Source: Rhodospirillales bacterium (GTDB taxonomy: Bacteria > Pseudomonadota > Alphaproteobacteria > Rhodospirillales > UBA2165). Taken from it: a stretch of 64,000 nucleotides of DNA. The notes below the pieces were generated by a model. The model was not told the origin of the DNA and did no database searches. It worked only from the letters and a program-made list of their open reading frames with translations. The position numbers and the translations under genes were made by a program. Positions 46,245-59,890 of the stretch are shown one piece after another. Within the stretch, counting starts at the first letter, position 1. Each line of letters starts with the position of its first letter. Location of the stretch: positions 1 to 64,000 of the forward strand of contig JAOMCN010000008.1 of NCBI GenBank assembly GCA_028345065.1, given 5' to 3'.

Positions 46245-46982
46245 TTGTCAAAAAACAATGAAAATAGTGTCGATACTTTGAGGCTCATTCTTGAAAAAAC
46301 AGATGCAACCTATGGGTCAGACAACCATCATCTGTCTCAGTTACTCATTTCCATCGCCGAGTCGGTCTTCAATAATGGTCTAATACTGTCGAAGAATGGA
46401 TATACCGGTACACACGGGAATGACCCCAAATTTCGTACTCTCCTGTCCAAATTGTTTTGTGAGGGCGAAATATACAAAGGAGATCATGCACTCGGTAGCA
46501 TTTACACGATTTCGAAGCAGCTAAATGATGCCGTTCACGATAAAACTATAACAAAAGGCGCTGGTAAATATCGAGAACAAGTCATTGAAAAACAGGGTGG
46601 CGCATATTGCGCACTCTGTGGCAGTAAAAGCGACCTTTCCGTTGATCACTTAATCCCAGTTAATAGAGGTGGTAATGAAGAATGGTTGGGTAATATGCAA
46701 TTACTTTGTAAAACCTGCAATTCTTCGAAGTCAAATCACGAGGATGAAATTCTATATAGGCTCATTAAACAAAATACGGATTGTTCCGTCTCTCCCTCCG
46801 CGAAATTTGCCTTCTTGTTGCTGAAATCTATTCGTAAAGAAGAATTAGTGATTGGGAAGTGCGACTGCGGAAAACTGGCCAGTGACGAGGAATTGGAAGT
46901 AGTGCCTCGAGATCCAAATTTAGCCGCAAATTTTTTAAATTTAAAAATCAGATGTGATCACTGCTTTAATAACGAGCGATAG
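46245..46982 (+). CDS. HNH endonuclease
   Basis: A 245-residue protein with a helical N-terminal region, then an HNH domain: C122-x2-C125, D134-H135, N150, and C155-x2-C158 (YCALCG, VDHLIPVN, LGNMQLLCKTCN). A second zinc site follows (C206-x-C208 and C237-x2-C240, in KCDCGK and CDHCFN). The start is TTG, with AGGAATTATAGG before it. It stands 13 bases before the DGQHR gene and so forms a two-gene unit with it. Such HNH proteins nick or cut DNA. Confidence 0.75.
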   Translation: MSKNNENSVDTLRLILEKTDATYGSDNHHLSQLLISIAESVFNNGLILSKNGYTGTHGNDPKFRTLLSKLFCEGEIYKGDHALGSIYTISKQLNDAVHDKTITKGAGKYREQVIEKQGGAYCALCGSKSDLSVDHLIPVNRGGNEEWLGNMQLLCKTCNSSKSNHEDEILYRLIKQNTDCSVSPSAKFAFLLLKSIRKEELVIGKCDCGKLASDEELEVVPRDPNLAANFLNLKIRCDHCFNNER

Positions 46983-46995
46983 GGAGGCCGCCAAA

Positions 46996-48318
46996 ATGGA
47001 AAGTTTCAAACAATGGCACAAATTTTATGGACACCAAGTAATTCAGAACCCGAGCAATCTAAAACTATCAATGTACTGTGGCGCTATAGACGCAAAAATC
47101 CTTCGTGATATTGTTTCTGTGGATAATGCTGTCAAATGGGACTCTGCATCTAAAGTATGGAGAGAGGGAGGTAGAAATAGGACGATTATTGAATCTCATG
47201 TAAACTCAATTGAAGAGTTTTTAGCGTCCGGAAATGCCGAACGCATTATGCCAAATTCTATTGTTTTATCTATCACGGAAACAGCATTTTCATTTAAGGC
47301 TTTCCCACAAATGCCAGAAATTGATAACGTCACGCCTGGCATAATTAAGGTAATGGGACTTTATAAAAGAAGCGCAAACGGTGATATTGAACCCTGCCCA
47401 GAGAAGGACAGAACGGGGTGGGTACTGGACGGGCAACATCGTATAAAAGCGTTTCGACAATGGGCATCCCCAGACCCGTATCCCGTTAACGTCATTATTT
47501 TAAAGCATTGGATGGGTAATGATTACGAAGATGTGATGCGACATCAGACTTATGAGCTTAATATGGGGCGTCCACTATCTGAAGACTTTAAATCGTCTAT
47601 TCGTGAGCAATACAATGAACAAATTGGACACAAAGAGTATAAACGTCAGATAGCACTAAGCTGGATCCGGAGAGAACTTGAAGGCCGTGGTGCTGTTTTT
47701 TCGCAAAATGGGATAGTGGGAGCCAGCAACCTTCGTACTCCATATATTATTACTATGAGTTTTCTTGAAAAACTTATTCAGTTCGCTTTTGAATCCGATA
47801 GCATTCTAAACAATAAATATGTTTTAGAAAAAATGACTAAAAATGAAGCGAAGGAAGTAAGTAAATATCTATTCGATTTTTATGAAGGGGTACGGATCTC
47901 ATTAGGCTTAATCAATCCTCAAACTATAGGCACAATAGGAAGCGAACCAGAAGTGTCCACCGCAAAAGATTACTGGGACATTGCCTCAAAAACTAAACAT
48001 AAACAGCGCCTTCTTCATAATGTTGGATTGAAAGCTGTGACAAAAGGCCTTTTACACAAGGTAATGGCAAATAATCCACAGAACCCAAGCGAAGTTGCGG
48101 AATCTCTTAAACATATGAGGGGTATCCCATGGCATGATCCAGGACTCCAAGCGAAAAAAGATGACTGGGTCAACCCATTGGCAGAAGCACTTTTAAAAAT
48201 GTACGAATCCAAGGGGACAGAGGGAGCAAACAAGAAGTATCAGATTAGAGCTGAAAAGAGGAACAATGCAGGAAATGTAATTGATACCTTCAATTTACAG
48301 GCATTTGGCTGGCAATAG
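46996..48318 (+). CDS. DGQHR-domain protein (DndB-like)
   Basis: A 440-residue protein with GWVLDGQHRIKAF (DGQHR at 145-149), the signature of the DGQHR family, which includes DndB of DNA phosphorothioation and related proteins of DNA-modification islands. The C-terminal two thirds are helical and have no recognised domain. The start at MESFK, with AGGGAGG before it, avoids overlap with the HNH gene. No dndACDE or dpd gene is near, so the pair appears to be independent. It may regulate or guide the HNH nuclease. Confidence 0.72.
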   Translation: MESFKQWHKFYGHQVIQNPSNLKLSMYCGAIDAKILRDIVSVDNAVKWDSASKVWREGGRNRTIIESHVNSIEEFLASGNAERIMPNSIVLSITETAFSFKAFPQMPEIDNVTPGIIKVMGLYKRSANGDIEPCPEKDRTGWVLDGQHRIKAFRQWASPDPYPVNVIILKHWMGNDYEDVMRHQTYELNMGRPLSEDFKSSIREQYNEQIGHKEYKRQIALSWIRRELEGRGAVFSQNGIVGASNLRTPYIITMSFLEKLIQFAFESDSILNNKYVLEKMTKNEAKEVSKYLFDFYEGVRISLGLINPQTIGTIGSEPEVSTAKDYWDIASKTKHKQRLLHNVGLKAVTKGLLHKVMANNPQNPSEVAESLKHMRGIPWHDPGLQAKKDDWVNPLAEALLKMYESKGTEGANKKYQIRAEKRNNAGNVIDTFNLQAFGWQ

Positions 48319-48989: not shown

Positions 48990-49300
48990 TTCCGGTACAG
49001 TTGCGCATTCAGGGAGTGTATCACAAATGGGTTATAATTTACAGAGGCGTGGGGCGTGGTTCGTGCACCGTGGCCCATAGTCCACTGTCGCATGACCCCA
49101 TGCATCGTGTGTTCGGAAGCTAACCTTAATTAGATAACGATTTACCTGTTTTGCTATTTAAACCGAAAGCACGACTGCCAAGGTTGCATTTATAGATTAG
49201 GGAAGTTGTCGAACTTTGGTTTACGGTTTGTGAAAAAGACGCTAATCAACGCTACCTAGTTTAGTATTTGCTGCCATACTTGATATGGGAGAACACCAGT
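48990..49300. other. Divergent intergenic region without a gene
   Basis: About 310 bases between the leftward phosphatase gene and the rightward AlbA_2 gene. It should hold both promoters; no hairpin, repeat or small gene of note was found. Confidence 0.45.
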
Positions 49301-50437
49301 ATGGAAGAGGAACAGTTGGGACGCAGTTATTCGGATTTCGAAACATTTAACAAAATAAAATTCGATGAAATCGTGTGTGAAATAAATTCACTTTCACAAT
49401 ATGACCAGAAGCATGACCAGAAGCACAATTTGGAAAAAGAGAATACTGTTTATATTTCCTGGAAAGGATTTGGTCTGTGTTATACAGACTTAGCAAACTT
49501 TGAACCCAATCAACGGCATCGCATCGCCAACCGTTTCGTTAGCGGAACGCATCCAAAAAATTACTTCCAAGTTGTTTTGGATAAAGAAAAAGCGGTTTCG
49601 GGTTATGTGTGTAGTTATCTTAATTCCAGTCATGGTGTTTCAAATTTGGAATCAGTTAGAGATCAAGTGCTAACCGAAAGTGATCTTAGGGCAATAATGC
49701 TGCCATTACCCCCGCTTGAAGTGCAGAGTGAAATTGCGCTCGTTGGTAGAAAACTTGGCGATATTTTGCGAGAAATTGAAGGTTTAGAGACAAATATATC
49801 TCTAAACCCAATTACATCAAAAAATGATCTGAACAAACTAGATTTAGTAGTATCAGCAATTGGTGAATTAAGTGCTTCGGATCGGTTAAAGACACTTATT
49901 CGACAAGATGAGAGTATCTCGTTGGAATTCAAATCTTCGCTTCAAACCCCTTTCCCAGATTATCCGCCCGCTGAGATTGATGAAAAGGGTCAACAAATTT
50001 TTCGAATGGGCAAATTAACATTTAAATCAAAAGCGCAAATTCATAAACACTTGGAAGAAGCATGTCTAAAAACCATAGTTGCTTTCTTAAATTCTCGTGG
50101 AGGGACATTAGTTATTGGTTTAACTAATGATAAAGTTCCAGCGGGAATTGAAAGAGAGAAATTTGAAAATAGTGATAAATTTCTTCTACACCTTACTCAA
50201 ATTATTAACAATCGGATAGGAAATTGGTTTGAGGTAGATTCTGAGATAATAGAGCATGAGGAAAAAAAGATCTGCCTAGTAAAAGTCCAATCCTATATAC
50301 CAAAAAAGGGGCAGACGCCCGCCCACTTAGATAAAAAGACTGTCTACAGACGCAGTGGACCACGTTCTGATCCCATTGAAGGAGAAGAGTTAGCAAGATT
50401 TATTATTGATAGAGCAAGCGATAATGAATCAACATAG
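49301..50437 (+). CDS. HsdS-like / AlbA_2 (Schlafen-type) fusion protein
   Basis: A 378-residue protein with two parts. Residues about 1-165 resemble a type I restriction specificity half (YFQVVLDKEKAVSGYVCSYL, then SDLRAIMLPLPPLEVQSEIA with the IPLPPLEEQ-like end). Residues 200-378 are an AlbA_2/Schlafen AAA-4 domain: SISLEFKSSLQ and LNSRGGTLVIGL. ATG is preceded by GGGAGA. The two halves may bind DNA and ATP or RNA. There is no HsdM or HsdR gene near. A 12-base tandem repeat at the start encodes DQKHDQKH. Confidence 0.65.
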   Translation: MEEEQLGRSYSDFETFNKIKFDEIVCEINSLSQYDQKHDQKHNLEKENTVYISWKGFGLCYTDLANFEPNQRHRIANRFVSGTHPKNYFQVVLDKEKAVSGYVCSYLNSSHGVSNLESVRDQVLTESDLRAIMLPLPPLEVQSEIALVGRKLGDILREIEGLETNISLNPITSKNDLNKLDLVVSAIGELSASDRLKTLIRQDESISLEFKSSLQTPFPDYPPAEIDEKGQQIFRMGKLTFKSKAQIHKHLEEACLKTIVAFLNSRGGTLVIGLTNDKVPAGIEREKFENSDKFLLHLTQIINNRIGNWFEVDSEIIEHEEKKICLVKVQSYIPKKGQTPAHLDKKTVYRRSGPRSDPIEGEELARFIIDRASDNEST

Positions 50438-54460: not shown

Positions 54461-54844
54461 TTGAAAAATATCCGAATATCTGAAGAGGTTTGGGACGCAA
54501 TCGCCGAGCGAGGAAAATTTGGAGAAACAGAGGACGATGTACTTCGCCGAGTGTTTGGCATGGGTGATTCTCTCGTTCCTCGAAATTCGAGACGCGCTTC
54601 TAAACGGAGCACAAATCGTTCGACCAATCGAATGAGTGCTAGATGTGAAAATAATCATTTGGTAATTGAATTTGAGTCTGGGGCCCGGAATTACTGGGTA
54701 CTGCCAAAAAAATCGGACAAAAGTGAGATTCGTAGAATTCGAGATGAAGCAGTCCAATTTGCTCTTAAAAACGATGCCACGCTCGGGCAAGTCAACGCTG
54801 TGAAAAAGGCACTAACAAACGAAGAATACTATTTGTCACGTTGA
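54461..54844 (+). CDS. SeqA_N-like ribbon-helix-helix protein
   Basis: A 127-residue protein. Its start, MKNIRISEEVWDAIAERGKF then GETEDDVLRRVFG, matches the RHH of the N-terminal part of SeqA and related DNA-binding proteins linked to modification and defence genes. The C-terminal half (CENNHLVIEFESGARNYWVL) is a beta-rich domain. TTG start with AGGAGGTCAGTAAA before it. It is probably a repressor or a DNA-organising protein and is followed by the Sel1 gene. Confidence 0.62.
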   Translation: MKNIRISEEVWDAIAERGKFGETEDDVLRRVFGMGDSLVPRNSRRASKRSTNRSTNRMSARCENNHLVIEFESGARNYWVLPKKSDKSEIRRIRDEAVQFALKNDATLGQVNAVKKALTNEEYYLSR

Positions 54845-57386: not shown

Positions 57387-58106
57387 ATGACTGCCAAGCA
57401 ACAATACAACGCATTTACGAGCGTTTTGAATGCAGCTTTAGGACCTTGCCCCTCTTTGTTAAATGGCGCGTGTCGCGATTTTGTGACCTGGGATCCGCAC
57501 CGGGGACAGGTGCCACGAGGCTGGTGGGGTGGACTTGGATCAACAGAAGAAATTGAACTGGTCATAGTTCTAGGAGAGCCATCCCTGAATACCCAGCCCG
57601 GTGAAAGCTATGGAGAATTTCCTACGGTGGCAGAGGTTTCTGGCTTCATAAATGGGTTATACCAAAATGTATTTCCGACAAAACCGCTAGGTACGGAGCT
57701 CCCAAGTGAAAGGGGAAGCGTTCACTACAATGTTATGCTTCTTCTCCAAATGTGTTTTGGCGAGGATCATTCTTTAGATGAATTAGCAAAACGGACATGG
57801 GTAACACAGGCCGTGCTATGCAGCGTGAAAAAAGGCACACTGCGGAGACACCACACCTCGGTACGCCAAACCTGTTGGCGAAAATATCTCAGGATGCAAT
57901 TAGATCTGGTGCCTGACGCCTTTATTATCCCCATGGGAAACAAGGCGAGAGACGCTGTCTCTTTTGTGGCACCCTCGAGACGCACACCATCCATAAACGT
58001 CATGGCGGCCGCAAGACCCTCGGCCAGTTCGCGCAGGAAGGATTCTCTTCAATCGTGGGAACATGCGGCAAGAGAATTTCGTCTCTGGAAAAATGCGGGT
58101 AGTTAG
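57387..58106 (+). CDS. Uracil-DNA-glycosylase-superfamily-like protein
   Basis: A 239-residue protein. VLGEPSLN (61-68) resembles UDG motif A (GEAPG-type), YNVMLLLQMCFG is a typical helix, and the C-terminal AARPSA (208-213) sits where UDGs have the HPSP loop, with R in place of H. IPMGNKARDAV between them matches the LG.A..A helix. If so it recognises a base lesion or modified base in DNA. I regard it as a divergent member, possibly without glycosylase activity. Confidence 0.5.
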   Translation: MTAKQQYNAFTSVLNAALGPCPSLLNGACRDFVTWDPHRGQVPRGWWGGLGSTEEIELVIVLGEPSLNTQPGESYGEFPTVAEVSGFINGLYQNVFPTKPLGTELPSERGSVHYNVMLLLQMCFGEDHSLDELAKRTWVTQAVLCSVKKGTLRRHHTSVRQTCWRKYLRMQLDLVPDAFIIPMGNKARDAVSFVAPSRRTPSINVMAAARPSASSRRKDSLQSWEHAAREFRLWKNAGS

Positions 58107-58389
58107 CTGGTAAGAGTTGAGACATTCAACGAGAAAGCCAAAAGGCGTTCGCCTTACGCCGTATGGGATGAGGATCTTTATATATGCCTTTACCGAGGAT
58201 TCGTCCGTCTGGTACCCCAAACTAAATGGCAGGGCTAAAAATAGACCAAAAGTCTTCTCTCAATTTCTACGGCTGTTGAAGCGGAAGACTGTCTCAACAC
58301 CCTTTGCCTGTAGAGTTTGCATGGATTTTGTGCAACGATGCTCGTTTATTTGGCGGATCTTTGTTAATGAGGAACTAGGCGAAGGTAAA

Positions 58390-59616
58390 ATGAAACCAAA
58401 GAATATCGATGCTCTTCAGGATCATCTTCCTGATGTTTTTAATCGAAAATCTCTTCCCGAGGACTGGGATGACGACGTCATCGTTATTCCGGTCGATCAA
58501 CTTGATGATGATAACCCTATTGACGAAACTTTGTATCCTGACTTTGAAGACGACCCTTTAACCGACCCGTCTCAAATTCCGGAGATCCTTGATGGGGTTT
58601 TAAGTTATCCCGACGATTTCCCCCCGGTTTCCTATGACGAAGTTTCCGGCGTAGCTGATGATCTTCGTGGAAAAATCGGGGGAGATTTTCCGGGAAGTCC
58701 AGGAGGTCTAGTAGGCGCGCCGGTACCCAGCACAGACACTTTGGGATTTTACCTTCCTTGGCATGAATTCAATACTGACGACTGGGGTATATATGTGATT
58801 GGTGAAGGAATTGACTCTCTAGGAAAAGATATTCACCAAATAACCCGTGGCTATCTGACCCTCAGTCAAAGTTGCCGCATAGCGAAGGGGTTCATATTCC
58901 ACCACGAAGCATTTCACAATGTTGTCGAAACCTTTGCAGCCCAAACCGAAATTTCTCATCGAACACCTTGTTATATCAGCGGGTTTCGAAAGCTTTATAA
59001 AACGGGATTCGCAAAAGGCTTAATGCATGAAGAGGGGATGGCAAACGCATATAGCTACGCCAAAATAGACACCGGCGCCTTTAAAAATATAAAGGATCTA
59101 TCCATCCGTCGCGCAAAAAAACAACTGGCATTACACGCACTTCGCATAATTATTCAAAGATCCCCGCCACCATACGATACGGCTGCAAAACTTCTCAAGC
59201 GGGCCCCATTTAAAAAAACGAGGAACCAATTCCAAGAAGAAGCTTTACAGACAAGCCTCCCCTCACTGATTGGCCTTCCACCGGACGCGTGGGAGGTGGC
59301 ACTGTTTTCCATGAGTCCTTCTCTGCGACGGAATGGACATTTCACATATGTAATTTCGCGAAATTCCAAATTAGCACATCGATCAAAGCTGTCGGTCTTC
59401 TACCTCAAAAGACGCCCGTTTTTAAAACAATTGGGGAAAGTCACTGGCGGGCAAGAGATAACGGCAGGCGGAAAACATCCCAGAAAATGGGTCACGCCCG
59501 GCGGATGGAAAGTGCCACTGCCCTATCACGGCAAGGAAATCGCGAGAGGAACCGCTCAAAAAATTCTAAAGGACTTAGGCGTTTCAGGACGCCTTGATGA
59601 CTTCATGAACCTCTGA
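58390..59616 (+). CDS. Putative HEXXH metallopeptidase with HicA-like C-terminal domain
   Basis: A 408-residue protein. The start at MKPKN follows AGGCGAAGG; an upstream extension is possible but looks non-coding. The first 110 residues are acidic and proline-rich (PEDWDDDVIVIPVDQLDDDN). A zinc-peptidase motif is H172-E173-A-F-H176, and HEEGMANAY (213-221) supplies the likely third ligand E215, as in gluzincins. The last 65 residues (AGGKHPRKWV, then GWKVPLPYHGKEIARGTAQK) match the HicA toxin pattern (GSHH..., vP.HG.kEi..GTl..Il). Together this suggests an internally controlled toxin. Confidence 0.6.
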   Translation: MKPKNIDALQDHLPDVFNRKSLPEDWDDDVIVIPVDQLDDDNPIDETLYPDFEDDPLTDPSQIPEILDGVLSYPDDFPPVSYDEVSGVADDLRGKIGGDFPGSPGGLVGAPVPSTDTLGFYLPWHEFNTDDWGIYVIGEGIDSLGKDIHQITRGYLTLSQSCRIAKGFIFHHEAFHNVVETFAAQTEISHRTPCYISGFRKLYKTGFAKGLMHEEGMANAYSYAKIDTGAFKNIKDLSIRRAKKQLALHALRIIIQRSPPPYDTAAKLLKRAPFKKTRNQFQEEALQTSLPSLIGLPPDAWEVALFSMSPSLRRNGHFTYVISRNSKLAHRSKLSVFYLKRRPFLKQLGKVTGGQEITAGGKHPRKWVTPGGWKVPLPYHGKEIARGTAQKILKDLGVSGRLDDFMNL

Positions 59617-59731: not shown

Positions 59732-59766
59732 AAAAAACCATTTGCCCCGGTTCTCAAACCGGGGCA
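59732..59766 (-). terminator. Rho-independent terminator of tRNA-Lys
   Basis: Read leftward: the 10-bp stem TGCCCCGGTT/AACCGGGGCA (59766-59757 and 59752-59743) with a four-base loop, then six T's at 59737-59732. It lies just downstream of tRNA-Lys on the same strand. Confidence 0.7.
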
Positions 59767-59814
59767 GAATGTCTTTATTACGTTGGTTTCCGGGGGTTTT
59801 CCCGGGGAAAAGAT

Positions 59815-59890
<76 letters not shown>

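Follow-up and report, generated by a model that had tools for sequence, protein, structure and literature searches.

A rare gene that joins a probable zinc-peptidase module to a HicA toxin fold

The gene at 58390-59616 of the window (the whole 64,000-nt stretch of DNA that was analysed) encodes a probable zinc-peptidase module joined to a HicA toxin fold, and this combination is rare. HicA is an mRNA interferase of a toxin-antitoxin system and is usually a small separate protein next to HicB. We favor, at about an even chance (roughly 0.5), a single-gene, HicB-less toxin of the anti-phage or abortive-infection kind in which HicA is the effector and the N-terminal two thirds of the protein are a built-in controller. 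An earlier sequence-only reading of this DNA had placed the ORF and its motifs exactly (forward strand, 408 residues) and had proposed that an HEXXH module and HicA share one chain. This was borne out, and both parts are kept in a distant homologue. The features are collected in Table 1.

Table 1. Positions of the fusion gene, its protein segments and its flanking signals in the window.
Feature	Position	Strand	Basis
GAAGG, Shine-Dalgarno-like, 4 nt before the ATG start	58381..58385	+	sequence
Fusion CDS, 408 aa: acidic N-terminus, zincin-like domain, basic linker, HicA domain	58390..59616	+	ORF call
Acidic N-terminal segment, residues 1-100, net charge -22, pI 4.1	58390..58689	+	
Conserved Gly/Pro hinge FPGSPGG (possible), residues 100-106 (homologue FPGGPGG)	58687..58707	+	alignment
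Zincin-like domain, residues 110-290, also found in the relative without HicA at a Druantia I locus	58717..59259	+	alignment
WGIY, residues 132-135, invariant in three relatives	58783..58794	+	alignment
HEAFH (HEXXH) putative zinc-binding motif, residues 172-176, inside modelled helix 158-190	58903..58917	+	
E214-E215, invariant EE pair, candidate third zinc ligand	59029..59034	+	alignment
HicA domain, residues 338-400	59401..59589	+	Pfam/PHROG profiles, AlphaFold2 model, structure matches
G361-K362-H363, catalytic G-x-H of HicA	59470..59478	+	alignment, PMC3969222
Terminator-like hairpin, 12 pairs, strong, closes the fusion gene	59741..59768	+	sequence
tRNA-Lys(CTT)	59815..59890	-	related genomes cease to match inside it or at its end

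Domains of the fusion protein

The C-terminus was compared with profile, sequence and structure collections. PF07927 matched with an E value of 8.9e-5 and 23 bits against a curated cut-off of 27 in a single-protein Pfam search and with 27.1 bits, just over the cut-off, in a genome-wide search; on Pfam alone the HicA assignment is borderline. PHROG 353, annotated as "toxin", matched residues 340-398 (E 1.6e-7), and in the PDB the C-terminus matched 1whz (E 0.005). Together these three matches back the HicA domain that the sequence-only reading had seen here. Using tblastn, the C-terminus also matched annotated HicA genes on a Ligilactobacillus plasmid and in Gordonia phages, and hicB lay downstream in those of these loci that were opened. 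The predicted G-x-H catalytic site is present as well, but the motif reads GGKH and the GSHH given earlier was wrong. Gly22 and His24, which are essential in the HicA of B. pseudomallei (PMC3969222), correspond to G361 and H363 of the fusion, and H363 is invariant in 20 of 20 aligned rows.

The fold was modelled with AlphaFold2 using an input alignment of the fusion, its homologue and 18 viral-contig HicA rows; a single-sequence fold of the fusion was discarded (pLDDT 34). Residues 339-408 were modelled at pLDDT 84-95 in the order helix-strand-strand-strand-helix. A structure search with this model returned 6hpb_A as the best match (Z 7.5, rmsd 2.0, 56 residues aligned) followed by 1whz (Z 7.4), 5yrz_B (Z 6.5) and 6g26_F (Z 6.3). 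All of these top four chains are HicA proteins, from E. coli, Thermus, S. pneumoniae and B. pseudomallei (Z 6.3-7.5, rmsd 2.0-2.8), and the fifth match is PI-PfuI, which has been named as a structural relative of HicA (PMC3969222). Model and structure matches thus gave a HicA fold for the last 70 residues. Because HicA rows were part of the alignment, the model depends in part on the family assignment and serves as support rather than independent proof.

The HEAFH motif and, at residues 213-221, HEEGMANAY were both found where they had been reported. HEXXH occurs once in the ORF, and residue composition would lead one to expect 0.017 copies in this protein. As composition alone makes the motif merely suggestive, it is conservation rather than the motif itself that carries the argument. 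HEXXH proved to be conserved among homologues: H172, E173, H176 and E214/E215 are unchanged across three relatives, namely the fusion and two proteins at 35% and 27% identity to it. Aligned together, the three share D-x-W-G-I-Y, H-E-A-x-H-xx-V-E-x-F-A and, farther along, E-E-xx-A-x-A. In gluzincins the third metal ligand downstream of HEXXH is a Glu. The EE pair lies 38-39 residues past H176, a candidate for this ligand by its place in the sequence rather than in a structure. The model puts the EE pair in helix 213-222 and HEXXH in another, long helix, with most of this half at pLDDT <60; HEXXH in one helix and the distal ligand in another is the general zincin picture.

Searches of this half against Pfam, NCBIfam and PADLOC gave no family match, and a profile search of the PDB gave no match. 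A structure search with the peptidase part returned mostly unrelated helical bundles (Z <5), and this lack of a fold match is not evidence for a new fold. Kinship with M78/ImmA-IrrE found no support, with an hhalign probability of 1.4% against 18 alphaproteobacterial M78 matches, several of them degenerate, and no PF06114 match. Because of the missing family match, the low-confidence fold and the 1.4% M78 probability, the domain is best called zincin-like without a named peptidase clan, and its peptidase activity is predicted.

Upstream of this domain the acidic N-terminus is mostly disordered in the model, in which residues 27-136 fall at pLDDT <50, and FPG[S/G]PGG sits between the acidic tail and the zincin-like domain as a possible hinge or cleavage site. 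The charge then reverses, with +14 over residues 231-333 and +9 over the last 75 residues. The homologue shows the same split in matching order (-14 at the N-terminus, +8, and +4 in HicA).

HicB antitoxins have a partial RNase H fold and HicAB is a type II toxin-antitoxin system. The claim that no HicB-like partner lies beside the fusion gene was supported. HicB_lk_antitox (PF15919) was absent from the genome, which is 67% complete with the neighbourhood of the fusion whole, PF05534 gave one match only, below cut-off and on another contig, and Pfam found no HicB family within the fusion protein. With no HicB family over cut-off, control must be exerted by the chain itself or by an unknown partner. 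At the homologue locus a 93-aa ORF (L010:3622-3903) without a family match lies 50 bp downstream of the fusion and is a possible partner; the window gene has no counterpart of it before its terminator.

Relatives and genomic setting

Homologues were sought in genomes of the same order, class and phylum (overlapping draws) and by pattern scans of a collection of 84,980 species. One full-length homologue that keeps both parts was found in an alphaproteobacterial MAG (JAPLOM010000030.1, our G172:C29, L010:2279-3571), a protein of 430 aa with 35% identity over residues 27-405 (E 1.1e-49). It retains the acidic N-terminus, HEXXH (as HEAYH), the EE pair and a HicA domain with GGRH at the catalytic site, and PF07927 matched it independently (E 7e-5). 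The HicA domains of the two fusions have drifted so far apart that blastp gives no alignment between the two; G-x-H is present in both. As the homologue keeps all of these parts at 35% identity, the peptidase-HicA fusion is, judged from the alignment, an inherited architecture that has lasted through deep divergence.

A profile search built from the two fusions detected a third relative of 308 aa (G987:C60, E 2.4e-15, 27% identity). It keeps HEAFH, EE and WGIY and consists of the peptidase half without HicA, which makes the zincin-like half a separable module. Plasmids, phages, viral contigs and the close-relative scans of the 84,980 species genomes yielded nothing beyond the one homologue. 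Weak partial matches in large ORFs or with stops (L003-L007, E 0.003-0.01) were rejected as relatives, as were L014 and L015, which matched in HicA only. The known family therefore comprises two full-length members and one partial member, all from draft assemblies and at least one of them a MAG; the genome carrying the partial member has about 6% contamination.

The gene for the relative without HicA precedes Druantia I genes by 43 bp and is co-directional with them. At this locus the peptidase-like gene is followed by a gene for a 955-aa protein, by DruD (E 2e-78) and by DruE (E 0); DruA (E 9e-197) is encoded on the opposite strand. A Druantia I locus on a Nitrosococcus plasmid has no peptidase-like gene between DruA and the next gene, and for this reason the gene looks like a Druantia I accessory. 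Its identification as DruB was dropped on the same ground and because no PADLOC model matched. The 955-aa protein (L031:12101-14968) likewise matches no PADLOC model and has relatives next to DruD on Nitrosococcus and Sinorhizobium plasmids. The genes tested around the fusion in the window included no DruA, DruD or DruE.

The fusion gene itself sits on a variable DNA island, between the island genes and tRNA-Lys. Similarity to a same-genus genome (G001, 94.6%) extends through rodA and breaks off within the tRNA at 59849; for several other relatives the break falls at the end of the tRNA. The island edge thus appears to lie at tRNA-Lys, the usual picture of tRNA-targeted integration. A direct repeat of the tRNA end was found nowhere else in the window, which leaves the far end of the element undefined. 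Past 59849 the same-genus genome carries unrelated sequence to its contig end (L020:1-120), which suggests a different element at the same tRNA.

Genes on the island side encode UDG-like, DUF805, ADP-ribosylglycohydrolase, Sel1, SeqA_N-like, DUF5906/Prim-Pol primase, Schlafen-AlbA, DndB/DpdB-like and HNH proteins. At 46245-48318 the HNH endonuclease gene overlaps the DndB-like gene (PADLOC DpdB, E 9e-17), a candidate modification- or restriction-type defence pair, and the product of 49268-50437 combines a Schlafen-AlbA domain with an N-terminal segment like a type I specificity subunit. At 54461-54844 a short protein that weakly matches the SeqA N-terminus is encoded next to the Sel1-repeat and ADP-ribosylglycohydrolase genes. 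Upstream of the fusion on the same strand lies a divergent uracil-DNA-glycosylase-superfamily protein of 239 aa (57387-58106), below the Pfam cut-off. The full-length homologue adjoins a tyrosine integrase, and all three relatives occur in mobile or defence contexts.

Control of the toxin and rival explanations

In the reading we favor, the C-terminal HicA domain would be the RNase effector and the acidic segment, the Gly/Pro hinge and the HEXXH zincin-like domain would form a controller replacing HicB. At rest the acidic segment, the zincin-like domain or both would cover the basic RNA-binding face of HicA, and the charge split and flexible hinge would fit such a cis-inhibitor. The sequence-only reading had proposed that the acidic N-terminus could be a self-inhibitor removed by the peptidase; the charges of both fusions and the modelled disorder of this segment are consistent with the inhibitory role. 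When triggered, for instance by infection, the zincin-like domain would cut at the hinge or shift, and the freed HicA would then cut RNA and stop growth. The conserved HEXXH suggests release by proteolysis, perhaps at the hinge; the direction of control, like inhibition, trigger and release, is what we infer from these features. A self-contained, protease-controlled defence toxin is made probable by the distant relative of the peptidase half found within a phage-defence operon. An anti-phage role has been proposed for HicA domains (PMC10865869), and HicA occurs in an experimentally validated defence system, with one domain tested as anti-phage (PMC13092281).

The roles could also be reversed, with HicA as an RNA-binding sensor and the zincin-like peptidase as an effector cleaving host or phage proteins. 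Of the two halves the peptidase is retained more widely, being present without HicA in the Druantia I locus, and the HicA fold is that of double-stranded-RNA-binding domains. A pure binding module, however, would not need the G-x-H, and its retention in both fusions despite otherwise diverged HicA domains favors an active HicA and leaves the reversed assignment unlikely. Conservation of HEXXH even where HicA is missing likewise favors an active metal site. This bears on a further reading, that of a fused HicBA of the Gerdes Class 13 type, whose N-terminal region would be a large cis-antitoxin with HEXXH as a structural or inactive remnant. The lengths of the fusions (408 and 430 aa) and the helical, low-confidence N-terminal model fit Class 13 as the main text of that paper describes it, but the relative without HicA also has HEXXH and EE unchanged, which points to a metal-dependent function rather than an antitoxin specific to HicA, and we regard a pure cis-antitoxin as improbable too. 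A last reading makes the gene an ordinary part of the island with an unrelated role, for instance in regulating the element, and with a decayed, non-toxic HicA-like tail, which would suit a rare, near-orphan island gene with a borderline HicA Pfam score. It is very improbable given that the ORF is intact, the catalytic residues are conserved in both fusions and the fold is confident.

Comparison with known systems

HicA toxins (PF07927; 6hpb, 1whz, 5yrz, 6g26) resemble the C-terminal domain in fold, G-x-H, basic charge and profile match. They differ in that HicA is here fused C-terminally to a 340-residue protein with no HicB beside it. The main text of Gerdes (2024) distinguishes 14 HicA contexts, of which Class 13 comprises proteins of 340-440 aa with a mostly helical N-terminus and a C-terminal canonical HicA (PMC10865869). 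Compared by this class description only, the fusion is alike in length, domain order and monocistronic layout; it differs in that the N-terminal part is there called a large HicB, the main text mentioning no peptidase or HEXXH (PMC10865869). By the same description, Class 13 fused HicAs may be the same architecture with an unrecognised peptidase. If so, the architecture is already catalogued with its N-terminal domain called HicB, and if not, the fusion is a further HicA context.

Zincins of the COG2856/ImmA-IrrE group have been linked to RelE and PIN toxins in a proposed three-component toxin system (PMC2701414). They share with the fusion the association of an HEXXH peptidase with an RNase toxin, whereas in that group an Xre HTH is joined to the peptidase and the toxin has a gene of its own. 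CapRel-type fused toxin-antitoxins, as cited in PMC10865869, also carry a toxin and its own control domain in one chain, but the CapRel toxin acts by tRNA pyrophosphorylation and its control domain differs. How fused toxins without a separate antitoxin stay silent and switch on is a question posed in the HicA literature (PMC10865869), and a built-in peptidase would be a concrete and testable answer. The widest version of this idea is a new form of toxin control in which an in-chain HicA is freed by its own zinc-peptidase acting on the acidic segment or hinge, the module doubles as a Druantia I accessory and the Class 13 N-termini are the same peptidase; taken as a whole it is unlikely. Druantia type I resembles the present case through the peptidase-only relative next to its core genes and differs in that the Nitrosococcus locus has no such gene and the window fusion no adjacent Druantia gene. 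A domain common to the fusion and a Druantia I operon suggests that phage defence includes a zincin-like component that has yet to be described.
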